Assembly (NCBI RefSeq): GCF_002795805.1
Contig: NZ_CP018799.1
Coordinates: forward strand, 799,001-863,000
Reading direction: 5' to 3'
From: Mariprofundus aestuarium
Lineage (GTDB): Bacteria > Pseudomonadota > Zetaproteobacteria > Mariprofundales > Mariprofundaceae
Length of the DNA: 64,000 bases
Shown here: positions 2,902 to 10,258 of the stretch, piece by piece
How positions within the stretch are numbered: position 1 is the first letter of the stretch
Layout of the letters: every line of letters begins with the position of its first letter
Program-made: the position numbers and the translations under genes
Notes under the pieces: model-generated
Seen by the model: the letters and a program-made list of their open reading frames with translations, nothing else
Database searches by the model: none
What the model was told of the DNA's origin: nothing

Positions 2902-3657
2902 ATGCAACGGCGAGAGAAGCGTGAACTGCGCGAAAAAGAGATTGTTGAGAAAACGATCAGGTTGTTGTCACAGCGCGGCTTTCTCGACCTGCGCATGGCC
3001 GATATAGCCAAAGAAACGAAATATTCGATGGGCACCATCTACTCTCACTTTGAGAGCAAAGAGGATCTTCTAGTCGCCTGTGCGCATGCACTTATTGTCG
3101 AGCACAAGGTGCTGTTTAACGCCATCGCCAGTCAGCCCATCTCTGCCATTGAGAAGATCATCACTACCGCCCAGTGCAGCTGGCAGATCTCTATGCGCCA
3201 CCCCGATCTGATCGAAATTGATAATCTCTCACTGATGCCTTCAGTCTGGCGCAGGGCTACGCAACAGAGGGCCAATGAGCTGAATCAACTGCATGTTGAG
3301 CTGGCGCAGCTGTTTCTCGGTCTCGTGCTTGAGGCGATTGAGAAGAGCCTGAATGGTTATGAAGAGCTGGATCAGCCCCAGATTGAGCAGCTGGCGCATT
3401 ACCTTACCCACGGCATGTGGGGTTTATGCGTGGGCCTATCCAGTACCGCCCAGTCAGGTTATGCCAGCACTCTCTGCCCGGATAGCGGTGATGAGAGTGA
3501 CACCTACTTCGCCACCAACTATAGCAATTTCCTCAAGGGCTATGGCTGGCAGGAGGAGAATCCAGACGTAGTCTTTGAGCAGTGCAAAAACATAGCTCAA
3601 CAGTGCATGGATCAGACCATCTGGTTCTCAAACAGCAGCAGGGAGCAGCAGTCGTGA
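2902..3657 (+). CDS. TetR/AcrR-family transcriptional repressor
   Basis: 251 residues. The N-terminal 50 form the TetR helix-turn-helix: IVEKTIRLLSQRGF, MADIAKETKYSMGTIYSHF, then ESKEDLL. The remainder is the helical ligand-binding domain, whose inducer cannot be predicted. The frame stays open upstream to 2839, but ATG 2902 is preferred: GAGG lies 5 nt before it, the domain then starts at a normal distance, and the longer form would place the palindrome inside the coding sequence. The stop overlaps the outer-membrane factor start by 4 bp (GTGA), so repressor and pump are co-transcribed, and autoregulation would control both. Confidence 0.88.
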   Translation: MQRREKRELREKEIVEKTIRLLSQRGFLDLRMADIAKETKYSMGTIYSHFESKEDLLVACAHALIVEHKVLFNAIASQPISAIEKIITTAQCSWQISMRHPDLIEIDNLSLMPSVWRRATQQRANELNQLHVELAQLFLGLVLEAIEKSLNGYEELDQPQIEQLAHYLTHGMWGLCVGLSSTAQSGYASTLCPDSGDESDTYFATNYSNFLKGYGWQEENPDVVFEQCKNIAQQCMDQTIWFSNSSREQQS

Positions 3658-5150
3658 GGGCGATGCCGCGTAATGTATTCACCCCCGTCGTTCTCTCTTT
3701 AATGATAAGCGGCTGCGCAGTCGGGCCTGATTTTTCATCCCCGGAAGCACCTAAGGTGACGGCTTATTCCAATGAGTATCCCGAAGGAGAACCGGCTGGC
3801 ACATCAGCCCAACCAAAACTGAAAGAGGCCGAGTCGATTCCAGCACTCTGGTGGCAGCTGTTTGAATCAGAAGAGCTAGAGCAGCTGGTTGCGCTTGGCC
3901 TGCAGCAGAGTCCGACCCTTGCTGCTGCAAAAGCCCGGCTGAAAGCTACAGAGGAGACATTCAGTGCGGATCAATCCTCGATTCTCTTCCCGGCTGTTGA
4001 TGCGAGTCTGAATAGCTCACGCCAGAAGATATCCGGCGCAACCTTTGGTAATGTCGGCAACGGCAGTCTGTTTACCGTGCACAATGCTTCTGTGGGTGTC
4101 AGTTATTCGCTTGATCTGTTTGGTGGCGGACAACGGTATCTGGAGTATGGATTGGCTCAGGTAGAGTTTGAGCGGTTTCAGATGCAGGCTGCTCGCATCA
4201 CACTGGCTTCCAATATTGTCACGACCGCGATTAACGAGGCATCACTGCGGCAGCAGATCATAGCGCTGCAGGAGATCATCACTGCAGAGGAAGAGCAGCT
4301 TAAAGTGGCCGAGCTGCAGTTTGAGATCGGTGTGATGGCCAAAGCGGATCTGTTAAGTCAGCGCACCGCCATGGCTCAGGCTCGTACCCAGCTACCAGCC
4401 CTGCAGAAGGCACTGGCGCAGAGCCGCCATCAATTGGCGACATTGACCGGAAGATTGCCGGGAGAGGTGACACTTCCTCAGTTCAAGCTTGGTGCATTGA
4501 CCATGCCGCAAGAGATTCCGCTGACACTACCTTCCAAATTGACCCGTCAGCGTCCGGATGTGCGCGCTGCAGAAGCGGCACTGCATCAGGCTAGTGCTCA
4601 GGTAGGTATAGCTACGGCCAACCTCTATCCCAACATCAATCTCTCCGGAAGTTATGGTACAGAAGCTGTGAAGTTCGGTGGCCTGTTCACTGCCGGAACC
4701 ACAATCTGGGGGTTGGGAGCTGGTGTTCTTCAACCACTGTTCAGAGGCGGGGAACTACATGCCAGAAAACGGGCTGCGGTTGCGAAATTTGAACAGGCCG
4801 CTGCCGAGTACCGCGCCAGTGTGCTCGGTGCATTTCAGGATGTGGCAGATGCACTGTTAGCACTGGAGATGGATGGCAGGCAGCTGGAGCTGCAGAAGCA
4901 GTCGGAGCAGATGGCATCAGAGACACTGAAACTGGTGAATCTGCAGCATGAGCAGGGGGCAGTAAGTTTCCTCACCCTGCTCAATGCCCAGCAGCAGTAT
5001 CAGCAGTCACGCATCAGCCTGATTCAGGCGCGTGCAACCCTCTACGCAGACACAGCAGCACTGATGCATGCACTCGGAGGCGGCTGGTGGAACCCACAGG
5101 GTGATCACTCCGCCCAGACAGATAAGAACAATTCGGAGAAACAGCTATGA
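3654..5150 (+). CDS. Outer-membrane efflux lipoprotein (NodT/OprM family)
   Basis: 498 residues from a GTG overlapping the TetR stop. The signal peptide ends in a lipobox (LMISGC) followed by AVGPDF, the standard start of RND-type outer-membrane factors. Two outer-membrane efflux repeats follow, the second with LTRQRPDVRAAEAALHQASA, NLYPNINLSGSYG and LQPLFRGGELHARK, all typical. Trimers of this family form the outer-membrane and periplasmic tunnel of tripartite pumps. The frame is open upstream to 3582, but that start lacks a ribosome-binding site and would hide the signal peptide. It is coupled to the adaptor gene by an ATGA overlap. Confidence 0.92.
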   Translation: MRAMPRNVFTPVVLSLMISGCAVGPDFSSPEAPKVTAYSNEYPEGEPAGTSAQPKLKEAESIPALWWQLFESEELEQLVALGLQQSPTLAAAKARLKATEETFSADQSSILFPAVDASLNSSRQKISGATFGNVGNGSLFTVHNASVGVSYSLDLFGGGQRYLEYGLAQVEFERFQMQAARITLASNIVTTAINEASLRQQIIALQEIITAEEEQLKVAELQFEIGVMAKADLLSQRTAMAQARTQLPALQKALAQSRHQLATLTGRLPGEVTLPQFKLGALTMPQEIPLTLPSKLTRQRPDVRAAEAALHQASAQVGIATANLYPNINLSGSYGTEAVKFGGLFTAGTTIWGLGAGVLQPLFRGGELHARKRAAVAKFEQAAAEYRASVLGAFQDVADALLALEMDGRQLELQKQSEQMASETLKLVNLQHEQGAVSFLTLLNAQQQYQQSRISLIQARATLYADTAALMHALGGGWWNPQGDHSAQTDKNNSEKQL

Positions 5151-6274
5151 AAAAACGCATGATTTGGATGGTGGCTATCGTCGGTTTCGTATTTGCAGCG
5201 ATTATCGGCTATCAGATGTTTGTTGCCAGCATGATGAAACAGTTTCTGGCCTCCAATGCCCAGCCGCCAGCAACAGTGACCGCTACGCAGGTGAAAGCTG
5301 AAGAGTGGCAGCCACAGTTGGCGTCGGTGGGCACATTGCGAGCGATTCAGGGGGTGGAGATCAGTGCCGAGATTGCAGGTCTGGTCAAAAAAGTTCATTT
5401 CAAATCGGGTGATGAGGTGAAAAAGGGCGATCTTCTGCTCGAGATGAACAGTGATGAAGAGGCTGCACAGCTGCTGGCACTGAAGGCCAACCGAAAACTG
5501 GCTGAGATCAACCTCAAACGTGATGAACAGCAGTTCAAGGTACATGCCATCAGCAACTCCAAGCTGGATGCATCCAGAGCAGAGCTGAGCAGTAGGCGTG
5601 CAGCGGAGCAGCAGCAGCAGGCGATCATTGATAAAAAACGGATTCGTGCCCCCTTTGATGGACGCCTCGGAATTACTCAGATCAATGAGGGCCAGTATCT
5701 GAATCCTGCAGAGCACATTGTTACGTTGCAGGACGGCCGGGCCCTCTATATCGACTTCAGTATGCCACAGAAATATGTGACGCAATTGCAGAAGGGGCAG
5801 ACCATAAGCGTTGCTACAGGCAACGGTGCGCAGGCGATCAGCGGAACGATTTCCACCATTAACAGCGTCGTGGATAACAGTACGCGTAATGTACAGGTCG
5901 AAGGGTTGATTGATAACAGTGACGGCAAGCTGCTGCCCGGCATGTTTGTGAATGTGAACATTGATGTTGGAGCACCGCAAAACCTGCTGACCCTGCCGCA
6001 GACCGCAATCAGCTTTAACGCTTACGGCTCTACCCTTTTTGTGGCCAGAGATGAGCAGGGCGCTGAAGAGGGTAAAACCCAACTGGTGGCGCAGCAGCTG
6101 TTTGTCAAAACCGGTGACAAACGCGGTGATCAGGTGGCAATTCTTGAGGGGCTGAAAGAGGGCGATACAGTGGTCACCTCCGGTCAGCTGAAGCTGAAGA
6201 ATGGTACGCCACTGATTATTAATAATGCGGTGTTGCCCGCCAATGAGTCGGCACCAACACCGCAGGAGAAGTAG
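5147..6274 (+). CDS. RND efflux periplasmic adaptor (HlyD/MexH-like membrane fusion protein)
   Basis: 375 residues with an N-terminal membrane anchor (MIWMVAIVGFVFAAIIGYQMF). The first lipoyl half is at about 60-105 (ISAEIAGLVKKVHFKSGDEVKKGDLL), then a short coiled-coil hairpin rich in Lys/Ala/Gln/Glu (about 105-160), the second lipoyl half (RIRAPFDGRLGI) and beta-barrel and membrane-proximal domains (LLPGMFVNVNIDVG). Such proteins bridge the inner-membrane RND pump and the outer-membrane tunnel. The 1-nt gap to the pump gene and the 4-bp overlap with the preceding gene show one operon. Confidence 0.92.
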   Translation: MKKRMIWMVAIVGFVFAAIIGYQMFVASMMKQFLASNAQPPATVTATQVKAEEWQPQLASVGTLRAIQGVEISAEIAGLVKKVHFKSGDEVKKGDLLLEMNSDEEAAQLLALKANRKLAEINLKRDEQQFKVHAISNSKLDASRAELSSRRAAEQQQQAIIDKKRIRAPFDGRLGITQINEGQYLNPAEHIVTLQDGRALYIDFSMPQKYVTQLQKGQTISVATGNGAQAISGTISTINSVVDNSTRNVQVEGLIDNSDGKLLPGMFVNVNIDVGAPQNLLTLPQTAISFNAYGSTLFVARDEQGAEEGKTQLVAQQLFVKTGDKRGDQVAILEGLKEGDTVVTSGQLKLKNGTPLIINNAVLPANESAPTPQEK

Positions 6275-6275
6275 G

Positions 6276-9200
6276 GTGCGCTATACCGATATCTTTATCC
6301 GCAAACCGGTGCTGGCGACCACCATCAGCCTGTTGCTGCTGGTGCTGGGTATGCAGGCGATCATGAACATGTCGATTCGCCAGTATCCTGAAACGCAGAA
6401 TGCCGTGGTGACAGTGAGCACGGTCTATTACGGTGCTGATGCAGAGACCATTTCAGGTTTTATTACCCAGCCGTTGGAGACTGCCATTGCGCAGGCTGAA
6501 GGGATCGATTATCTCTCATCAGTCAGTGTCAGTGGTGCCTCAACGATCAGTGCCACGCTGCGCCTGAATCACGACTCCAATCGCGCTCTAACCGATATCA
6601 ATGCCAAGGTGAATGCTGTGCTTAATCAGCTACCTGCCGAGGCGCAGCAGCCGGTACTCACCGTGCAGGTGGGTGAAACGATTGATTCGATGTACATGGG
6701 TTTCTTCAGTGATGTATTGCCTAATAACAATGTCACCGACTACCTGTTGCGGGTGGTTAAACCACAACTGGATGGTATTGAGGGTGTGCAGCGTGCCGAA
6801 ATTATCGGTGCGCGCCAGTTTGCCCTGCGCGCCTGGCTGGATCCGGCGCGTATGGCCGCCTACGGCATCTCAGCTACTGAGGTTTATGGGGCACTGGCTG
6901 CCAACAACTATCTGGCAGCTCTTGGCAGCAGTAAGGGGCAGATGGTCAGTGTTGATCTGAATGCCGCGACCAGCCTGCACTCGGTGGAGGAGTTCAAGCG
7001 ACTGGCGATACGAGAGAAGAATGGCGCGATTGTACGGCTGGAGGATATCGCCAATGTCGTGTTGGGAGCCGAAGACTATAATTTGGCTACAGCCTTTGAT
7101 GGCGACAAATCTGTATTTGTTGGCATCAAGGTGGCGCCGGATGCCAATGTGCTGGAAGTGGTTCAGCGTGTACGTGATGCATTCCCGGCTATTCAGGGGC
7201 AGATGCCCAACGGATTGAGCGGCAAGATTGTTTATGACGGCACTAAATTTATTGAGAGCTCGATTGATGAGGTGATCAAAACCCTGTTTGAGGCACTACT
7301 GATTGTAGCACTGGTGGTGTTTATCTTTCTGGGTAACTGGCGGGCCGTGGTAGTACCGCTGGTGGCTATTCCACTCTCACTGATTGGTGCATTTTTTATG
7401 ATGCAGATGCTGGGTTACACCATCAATCTGCTTACCCTGCTCTCACTGGTACTGGCCATCGGGTTAGTGGTGGATGATGCCATTATTATTGTCGAGAACG
7501 TTGATCGACATATGCATGATGAGGGTAAAAGCCCGTTTGAAGCGGCGATTATGGCGGCGCGTGAGCTGGGTGGTCCGATTATCGCCATGACCGTCGTGCT
7601 CATTGCTGCCTATGTACCGATTGGTTTTCAGGGTGGTTTGACCGGCGCACTGTTTACCGAGTTCGCCTTCACCCTGGCCGGTGCGGTGACCATTTCAGGT
7701 ATCGTGGCTTTGACACTCTCTCCGATGATGACCTCCAAACTGTTCAGGCCCAATCAACAGGAGTCCGGACTGGTGGAATTTATCAACCGTCAGTTCTCAC
7801 GCCTGCATGCTGCTTATCAGCGTCGCCTGACCGGTACGCTGGAGACCTGGCCGGTGATGGTCGTGATGGGCGGGCTACTGCTGGTTGGTGTGGTCTATCT
7901 CTTTGCCACCTCCAAGGCTGAGCTGGCACCGGAAGAGGATCAGGGTATTGTCATGGCGCATGTGGTGGGTGCACCCAATGCCACTGCGCAGCAGATGGGC
8001 GTCTATGCCGATCAGGCCTATAAACTGGCGCGTGATCTGCCCGAATATGATCAGATGTTCCAGCTTACCGGTATTCCAACAACGAATCAGGGTATGGGTG
8101 GTGTGCTGTTTAAACCGTGGGATGAGCGGGATCGCAGTGCAGCTGAACTACAGCAGGTGCTGCAGCAGCGCTGGAGCACGATTGCTGGTGCGCGAGTGGC
8201 GGCCTTCCAGTTCCCCGCGCTACCCGGTTCAGGAGGTCTGCCGCTGCAGTTTGTGATCAAAACGACTGAGTCCTTTGAGAACCTGAATGAGATTGTCGGC
8301 AAGGTGCTGGCCAAAGCGCAGGCCAGTGGCATGTTCTTCTTTATCGATTCTGATCTGAAAATCGATAAACCGCAGAGCACGCTGGTGGTGGATCGTGATA
8401 TGGCAACCGATCTGGGGTTGACCCAGCAGGATATCGGTGCCGCCCTTGGTGCTGCCCTTGGTGGTGGATATGTGAACTACTTCGCCATCGGTGGCCGCTC
8501 TTACCGGGTGATGCCGCAAGTGGCACAGGAGCACAGGCTGAATCCCGAGCAGGTGCTGGATTACCATATTCGCATCCCATCCGGTGAGATGATCGCCGCC
8601 TCTACATTTGCCTCGATCACCCATGAGGTGGTGCCGGAATCGATCAACCGTTTTCAGCAGCTCAATTCAGCTACCATTTCCGGTGTCTATGCGCCAGGTG
8701 TCTCACAGCAGCAGGTGCTCTCGTTTATGCAGCAGGCGCTTAATGAGGCTGCACCGGCCGGCTATAACCCCGATTATGCAGGCCCGTCACGCCAGTATAT
8801 GCAGGAGTCCGGCGGATTTGTTTTCACCATGCTGTTTGCTATTGTGATTGTCTTTCTAGCCCTCTCTATCCAGTTCAACAGTTTCCGTGATCCACTGGTG
8901 ATTCTGGTCTCTGTACCGCTGGCACTGCTCGGTGCTCTGCTGTTTATCAATGTCGGCCTTGCTTCGATCAATATCTATACGCAGGTGGGGCTGGTGACGC
9001 TGATGGGATTGATCAGTAAACACGGCATTCTGATGGTGCAGTTCGCCAATGAGTTGCAGCTGCAGGGGCGCTCGAAACTTGATGCCATTATTGAGGCTTC
9101 ATCTGTGCGTCTGCGTCCGATCCTGATGACTACCGCAGCCATGGTGCTGGGTGTGTTGCCACTGGTCATGGCCAGTGGTGCCGGTGCGGCAGGTCGCTAC

Positions 9201-9353
9201 TCGATGGGGCTGGTGATCTTTACCGGCCTCTCTATCGGGACCCTGTTTACCCTGTTTGTGGTGCCTGCGGTCTACGTGCTGCTGGCCAAAGATCGCACGG
9301 CTGAGGTGGTGAGCAGTGAAGAGGAGTTAAATCTTGCGGAGAAACTGGCATGA
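6276..9353 (+). CDS. RND-family multidrug efflux pump, inner-membrane subunit
   Basis: 1025 residues, normal for the hydrophobe/amphiphile RND family. It begins MRYTDIFIRKPVLATTI. Two sets of transmembrane helices each precede a large periplasmic loop. The proton-relay Asp pair is visible in TM4 (GLVVDDAIIIVENVDRH), and duplicated family motifs appear in the second half (LMGLISKHGILMVQFAN). It should export amphiphilic compounds in proton antiport; the substrate is not predictable. The GTG at 6276 is chosen because AGGAG lies 7 nt before it and the protein then begins like its family, although the frame is open from 6225. Its stop overlaps the cyclase gene start by 4 bp. Confidence 0.94.
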   Translation: MRYTDIFIRKPVLATTISLLLLVLGMQAIMNMSIRQYPETQNAVVTVSTVYYGADAETISGFITQPLETAIAQAEGIDYLSSVSVSGASTISATLRLNHDSNRALTDINAKVNAVLNQLPAEAQQPVLTVQVGETIDSMYMGFFSDVLPNNNVTDYLLRVVKPQLDGIEGVQRAEIIGARQFALRAWLDPARMAAYGISATEVYGALAANNYLAALGSSKGQMVSVDLNAATSLHSVEEFKRLAIREKNGAIVRLEDIANVVLGAEDYNLATAFDGDKSVFVGIKVAPDANVLEVVQRVRDAFPAIQGQMPNGLSGKIVYDGTKFIESSIDEVIKTLFEALLIVALVVFIFLGNWRAVVVPLVAIPLSLIGAFFMMQMLGYTINLLTLLSLVLAIGLVVDDAIIIVENVDRHMHDEGKSPFEAAIMAARELGGPIIAMTVVLIAAYVPIGFQGGLTGALFTEFAFTLAGAVTISGIVALTLSPMMTSKLFRPNQQESGLVEFINRQFSRLHAAYQRRLTGTLETWPVMVVMGGLLLVGVVYLFATSKAELAPEEDQGIVMAHVVGAPNATAQQMGVYADQAYKLARDLPEYDQMFQLTGIPTTNQGMGGVLFKPWDERDRSAAELQQVLQQRWSTIAGARVAAFQFPALPGSGGLPLQFVIKTTESFENLNEIVGKVLAKAQASGMFFFIDSDLKIDKPQSTLVVDRDMATDLGLTQQDIGAALGAALGGGYVNYFAIGGRSYRVMPQVAQEHRLNPEQVLDYHIRIPSGEMIAASTFASITHEVVPESINRFQQLNSATISGVYAPGVSQQQVLSFMQQALNEAAPAGYNPDYAGPSRQYMQESGGFVFTMLFAIVIVFLALSIQFNSFRDPLVILVSVPLALLGALLFINVGLASINIYTQVGLVTLMGLISKHGILMVQFANELQLQGRSKLDAIIEASSVRLRPILMTTAAMVLGVLPLVMASGAGAAGRYSMGLVIFTGLSIGTLFTLFVVPAVYVLLAKDRTAEVVSSEEELNLAEKLA

Positions 9354-10258
9354 GCCATATCTATTCGGAGAGTGACCAAAAGCGTATTGAAGTCGCGGAG
9401 AGGGAGACGATTCTAGCCTCATCGCTGAAATCGGGCATCAAACATACACACGCCTGTGGTGGCAATGCGCGCTGCTCTACCTGCAGGGTGCATGTGGTTG
9501 AAGGGCTGGAGCATTGTGAGCCGCGAAACAGTGCCGAAGAGAAGATGAAAGATCTGCTGCGCTTTCCTGATGATATCCGGCTTGCCTGTCAGACCAGAAT
9601 CAGTGGCGATATTAAAATCCGTCGCCTGGTCGTTGATGATCTGGATGCTCAAATTATCAACGATCAGCTGGCCAGCCATGATGAGAACTCACTGGGTCGG
9701 GAAAAAGATATTGCTGTGCTGTTTACCGATCTGGCCAACTACACCGAATTTGCCGAATCACTTCCTGCTTATGATGTGGTGCATGTGCTCAATCGCTACT
9801 ACATGACGATGAACGAAATCGTGACCAGACATGGCGGCGTGATCAGTGATGTGGCCGGCGATGGTATGTTGATTCTGTTTGGTGCCTGCAAGAAAGAGGA
9901 TGGCCTGGTGATCGATGCGATCCGTACCGTGCAGGCGATGCGTAAGGAGTTGAAGCATTTTAACGAATATCTGGAGAGTATGTACGGCCGTTCATTCGGT
10001 TTGCGGGCGGGTATCCATTATGGATCGGCCATTATTGGTCATTTTAGCACAGGCTCGATGAGTAAAGTCGCGGCAATTGGTGATACAGTTAATTTGGCTA
10101 GCAGGATCGAACAGGCGAACAAACAGTTTGGCTCCCAGCTTCTGATTTCAGAATCAGCATATGAACATGTAAGCAAACATGTAAAAACATCTGGATCACA
10201 TAGTTGTCAACTCAAAGGGAAGAGTGGCATTTATACCTTATATGAAGTTGAAGTATAG
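9350..10258 (+). CDS. 2Fe-2S ferredoxin domain fused to class III adenylate/guanylate cyclase
   Basis: 302 residues. Residues 1-95 are a plant-type [2Fe-2S] ferredoxin domain with C36, C42, C45 and C80 (C-x5-C-x2-C ... C). Residues 117-302 are a class III nucleotide cyclase catalytic domain. The metal-binding aspartates are D127 (VLFTDLANYT) and D171 (VAGDGML), 44 residues apart as in Rv1625c, and the transition-state residues are N248 and R252 (IGDTVNLASRIE). The usual adenine-selecting Lys four residues before the second Asp is replaced by D167, so substrate choice is uncertain. The cluster suggests redox-controlled cyclic-nucleotide production. Translational coupling to the RND pump (ATGA) is unusual. 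Confidence 0.88.
   Translation: MSHIYSESDQKRIEVAERETILASSLKSGIKHTHACGGNARCSTCRVHVVEGLEHCEPRNSAEEKMKDLLRFPDDIRLACQTRISGDIKIRRLVVDDLDAQIINDQLASHDENSLGREKDIAVLFTDLANYTEFAESLPAYDVVHVLNRYYMTMNEIVTRHGGVISDVAGDGMLILFGACKKEDGLVIDAIRTVQAMRKELKHFNEYLESMYGRSFGLRAGIHYGSAIIGHFSTGSMSKVAAIGDTVNLASRIEQANKQFGSQLLISESAYEHVSKHVKTSGSHSCQLKGKSGIYTLYEVEV

Follow-up and report, generated by a model that had tools for sequence, protein, structure and literature searches.

CyaC of Sinorhizobium meliloti is a redox-regulated cyclase with a [2Fe-2S] cluster (PMC10463352), and the CyaC-type, or 6TM-ferredoxin, class IIIb adenylate cyclases have a [2Fe-2S] domain directly before a class III cyclase domain together with a six-helix diheme transmembrane anchor. 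We analysed a 64,000-nucleotide stretch of Mariprofundus aestuarium (contig NZ_CP018799.1, positions 799,001 to 863,000; hereafter the window), whose genome is a single contig of 2,537,610 bases, and found a fusion with the same domain order. It is related to the quinone-responsive CyaC-type ferredoxin-cyclases (PMC10463352; PMC4821796) and homologous to them over both domains (CyaC-type cluster 1: PMC4821796), but it lacks the anchor, and where most of those proteins have the adenine-selecting Lys and a Thr, it has Asp and Ala. The window protein is a D-A form of a ferredoxin-cyclase kind already known. Its two-domain layout is shared with soluble ferredoxin-cyclases of Cyanobacteria, Planctomycetota, Chloroflexota, Bacteroidota and others, mostly 300-390 aa long and about 34-49% identical to it; no description of these was found in the literature searched, which is weak evidence as most subscription journals lay outside that search. 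Sequence and fold comparisons both point to 2w01, the guanylyl cyclase Cya2 of Synechocystis, as the nearest solved structure; the domain solved in 2w01 comes without a ferredoxin domain.

The gene occupies 9350-10258 on the forward strand and encodes a soluble protein of 302 aa, its start lying in an ATGA overlap (9350-9353) with the RND gene ahead of it. Residues 9-84 (9374-9601) form the [2Fe-2S] ferredoxin domain (Fer2 PF00111, E 2.2e-11), which resembles adrenodoxin and bacterial ferredoxin structures and has the cluster pattern C-x5-C-x2-C-xn-C (C36, C42, C45 and C80). Residues 118-296 (9701-10237) form the class III catalytic domain (Guanylate_cyc PF00211, E 5e-19). Both matches exceed the Pfam cut-offs, confirming the ferredoxin-cyclase fusion proposed in the earlier note. 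Two metal-binding Asp (D127 and D171) and the transition-state residues N248 and R252 are all in place, which identifies a class III nucleotidyl cyclase. The protein contains no hydrophobic segment, and no sequence domain was found N-terminal to the ferredoxin domain. In an AlphaFold2 model (mean pLDDT 90.2), a monomer model that is silent on the dimer, a helix at about residues 97-109 joins the two domains and is a plausible signal path. The dN/dS of the cyclase was 0.07-0.13 against orthologs with measurable dS, and such purifying selection on a D-A cyclase speaks against decay.

Alignments place D167 (9848-9850, forward strand) at the adenine-selecting Lys position, so the Asp previously read there in place of the standard Lys was correctly assigned. 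They also reveal a second changed base-selecting position that had been overlooked, A241 (10070-10072, forward strand), where most relatives have Thr. In the alignment with Cya2, D167 falls on the Glu and A241 on the Gly of its base-selecting E-G pair, so that both proteins have an acidic first and a small second residue. Ala is itself among the second-site residues of guanylyl cyclases (PMC4215837), and their acidic first-site residue, through the contact of Glu with N1/N2, has been argued to carry most of the GTP specificity (PMC7384201). Because the D-A pair aligns with E-G, a redox-gated, GTP-preferring cyclase is our best guess, with GTP as the likelier substrate and cGMP as the product. 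Several points weigh against this preference. Known guanylyl cyclases of the Cya2/sGC type have Glu at the first site; no Glu stands there in the window protein, where the residue aligned with it is Asp, one methylene shorter. In addition, the Tyr that raises guanylyl cyclase activity in Cya2 (PMC4215837) corresponds to Ser251. Given the shorter Asp and the loss of the helpful Tyr, the GTP preference is a lead, not a result.

The variation of this pair was examined in an alignment of 127 ferredoxin-cyclases, collected by a genome-wide scan and by surveys of phyla, including an extended survey of Bacteroidota and Chloroflexota that gained few members; some are near-duplicates of one genome, and the tallies count sequences, not evolutionary events. 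All 127 have the four cluster Cys, and 120 have the full catalytic set. The adenine-selecting Lys is kept in 47 of the 51 6TM proteins and absent from 47 of the 61 soluble ones, which have Asn (26), Lys (14), Asp (14), Cys (3), Val (2), Ala (1) or Glu (1) at this position and are mostly Asn-Thr. Asp is paired with Ala at 241 in 13 of 14 cases, and one Asp-type ortholog is D-T (L014). The Asp group, 14 rows from Bacteroidota and Zetaproteobacteria to which Asp-Ala is confined, lies on one side of a single branch with support of 100/99; the D-A change is thus one event on the tree and not a recurrent one. Throughout this clade the catalytic set (D127/D171/N248/R252) and the cluster Cys are intact. 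That D-A arose once, without repeats, and that one ortholog is D-T both count against a GTP preference; moreover, as most soluble relatives are Asn-Thr, D-A may be mere drift in an already relaxed pocket. Elsewhere in the alignment, three soluble cyanobacterial ferredoxin-cyclases (L182, L183 and L184) keep the cluster Cys and have lost metal-binding or transition-state residues, and are possibly non-catalytic redox proteins. Compared with the link to efflux from which the analysis of this locus started, the changed pocket of the soluble ferredoxin-cyclases is the more interesting feature.

The alternative that survives best is an ordinary redox-gated adenylyl cyclase that uses ATP despite the altered pocket, as class III enzymes can do when their first base-selecting residue is altered. 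Rv1900c works as an adenylyl cyclase with non-canonical residues, and the base-selecting pair sets class III specificity only partly. In support of the same reading, Cya2 has equal affinity for ATP and GTP (PMC4215837), and CaGC has been argued to select during catalysis and not at binding (PMC7384201). The genome also encodes several canonical CRP-type receptors: the search for CRP-like receptors that had been suggested returned 15 matches to the cyclic-nucleotide-binding family, CRP-type proteins among them, some with CRP-like phosphate-binding motifs. No cGMP receptor was identified among these 15 matches, and none of them was assignable to the window cyclase. On the other side, an acidic residue followed by a small one is the pattern of guanylyl and not of adenylyl cyclases, and Lys-Thr is retained by six of the genome's other cyclases, the rest being one Glu-Ala protein and two diverged ones. 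We consider an ATP-using enzyme rather unlikely. The Glu-Ala protein (L006, G000:C1:731575-732174), a class III cyclase in a 485-aa open frame, has a pair similar to the Glu-Gly of Cya2 and is a candidate guanylyl cyclase in its own right.

Upstream of the cyclase, on the same strand, lie the genes of a TetR-regulated HAE1 RND efflux operon. The TetR-family regulator (2902-3657; TetR_N E 1.5e-13) starts at ATG 2902 and is followed by an outer-membrane efflux protein of NodT/OprM type (3654-5150; OEP E 8e-50, TIGR01845 above cut-off), with a 4-bp GTGA overlap if the start of the latter is GTG 3654, ATG 3663 being the alternative. A 4-bp ATGA overlap (5147-5150) joins it to the RND periplasmic adaptor (5147-6274; TIGR01730 above cut-off, HlyD_D23), and a 1-nt gap separates the adaptor from the RND (HAE1) permease (6276-9353; ACR_tran E 8e-260), which starts with GTG at 6276. 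The gene order, overlaps and gap described in the earlier note were therefore all recovered from the sequence. Ahead of the regulator, an imperfect 24-bp palindrome, CGATTATTGTTCGAACATTATTCG (2859-2882; 13-nt arms, 85% complementary), has a core, TTCGAAnATTrTTCG, that is conserved upstream of five pump operons, cyclase-bearing or not, and is a putative TetR operator. Compared with other HAE1 RND operons with a TetR gene, the four upstream genes and their candidate operator make an ordinary pump operon, whereas a cyclase tail gene was found in only three genomes among those surveyed. Promoter and terminator scans of the operon ends yielded no signal above that of shuffled sequences. Genes around the operon in the window encode TatC, YkuD and HrcA. 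The cyclase has a G+C content of 48% (51% at third positions) versus 52-55% (55-62%) for the pump genes, weak evidence of the kind expected for a late joiner of the operon. In another genome (G020, L163:6364-13004), the RND protein is 95% identical to that of the window and the adaptor, outer-membrane protein and TetR just 73-79%, which suggests recombination inside the pump operon.

We surveyed 78 genomes of the class for orthologs of the D167 type and for K-type relatives. D167-type orthologs, 63-100% identical, occur in seven genomes including that of the window, and K-type relatives (about 40% identical) in four others; at the cut-off used, no class genome held both types of soluble ferredoxin-cyclase. 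The full TetR-OMF-adaptor-RND-cyclase order is present in three of the seven (the window, G001 and G015), where the 4-bp RND-cyclase overlap is kept and the cyclases are 83-87% identical. The arrangement, which might have been unique to this strain, is thus shared with two further genomes of the genus and is absent at the other four class orthologs. Here the G009 cyclase, 84% identical, comes after a CDGSH-glutamate synthase gene, the G008 cyclase lies downstream of Memo-AMMECR1-radical SAM genes, the G093 cyclase comes 5 nt after a TatD gene, and the G028 cyclase is close to a contig end, behind unassigned genes. Conversely, eleven or more additional genomes have RND orthologs 82-95% identical to the window pump; wherever the 3' flank was readable, no cyclase stands behind them. 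In G011, G012 and G013 a K-type paralog shares 1-4 bases with the gene of a MidA-type methyltransferase; in G011 and G012 it also shares 4 bases with an RNA methyltransferase gene. In Roseivirga and a related Cytophagia genome (L071, L078 and L080), a D-A cyclase lies 2-8 nt behind a gene whose product resembled an ABC exporter; this proved to be an ABC-F ATPase, and an exporter link there was discarded. A single-domain cNMP-binding gene directly upstream of the pump-operon tetR (L041:1795-2337) was also rejected as a constant partner, as it was found in G001 only, TatC and hemerythrin kinase genes taking its place in the window and G015.

These data bear on the proposal of the earlier note that efflux is tied to cyclic-nucleotide signalling, a redox or iron-sulfur signal being turned into a cyclic nucleotide in step with expression of the RND pump, and on its extension to a joint selection of the two functions. 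This reading draws support from the overlap retained in three genomes at 83-87% cyclase identity, from the similar synonymous divergence between the window and G015 for cyclase (0.78) and RND (0.74), from the cNMP-binding gene upstream of the operon in G001, and from a K-type cyclase in G014 that has a distant RND gene 386 nt ahead of it. However, four of the seven class orthologs are located elsewhere, pumps 82-95% identical do without a cyclase, the upstream cNMP gene is missing in two of the three operons, paralogs overlap MidA and methyltransferase genes in a similar manner, and the Roseivirga orthologs adjoin ABC-F ATPases. The survey of neighbourhoods therefore argues against a conserved RND-cyclase operon across lineages. 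As tight overlaps are a common habit of the ferredoxin-cyclase family, an overlap alone fails to identify a partner, and with the operon position limited to a few close relatives the pump is probably not the dedicated partner of the cyclase. From this genomic distribution, the association is lineage-specific and no conserved module, and we regard a pump-signal unit as distinctly unlikely.

A pyrimidine cyclase of PycC type, producing cUMP or cCMP and perhaps serving phage defence, is very improbable. PADLOC PycC models do match the window protein (best E 9e-24), and its base-selecting residues are unlike those of adenylyl cyclases. Nevertheless, every class III match in PADLOC is here a PycC model, so that any class III cyclase should give one. 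The published PycC base-selecting residues are Y50/D94/R97, F60/K104/F109 or F100/R142/Q144 (PMC11224242); transferred by the 44-residue spacing of the metal Asp, these sites correspond to F125, D167, A169, G172 and L174, with agreement only at a common Phe. Furthermore, the genes next to the cyclase in the window include neither a PycTIR nor a PycTM effector. That the protein is a degenerate cyclase with a purely redox-sensing or scaffold role, as the incomplete catalytic residues of the three distant cyanobacterial relatives might invite, is hardly credible, since the window protein and its whole clade retain all catalytic residues and dN/dS is about 0.1.

Redox gating, dimerisation, a GTP preference and co-transcription with the pump are what we infer for the window cyclase. 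In the favoured mechanism, the N-terminal [2Fe-2S] domain would control a soluble homodimeric class III cyclase, the cluster acting, by its redox state or its occupancy, through the helix at about 97-109 on the catalytic dimer, and the D167/A241 pair would make GTP the likelier substrate and cGMP the product. As the protein is without a membrane anchor, soluble electron carriers, oxygen or the iron-sulfur supply would have to set its cluster. In the window lineage the cyclase would have joined a TetR-controlled RND operon as its last gene, a position that predicts co-transcription with the pump, the pump not being a required partner. We judge the chances evenly balanced that the protein is, as a whole, such an active, redox-controlled, probably GTP-using homodimer at the end of an operon whose pump it does not need. 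The wider proposal is less likely than not: that soluble ferredoxin-cyclases are a widespread family that departed from cAMP, in which the D-A clade is a redox-switched guanylyl cyclase and the Asn-Thr majority has another specificity.

The pump context carries a caution, in that the overlap-coupled operon neighbours of ferredoxin-cyclases swap freely. Loss of the adenine-selecting Lys throughout the clade makes a specific and cheaply checked prediction. Guanylyl cyclases are scarce in bacteria, and one that is soluble and switched by an iron-sulfur cluster would, if the GTP reading is true, be a clean, anchor-free system for redox-to-nucleotide signalling; the D-A clade would then give iron oxidisers and some Bacteroidota a redox-tied cGMP signal.
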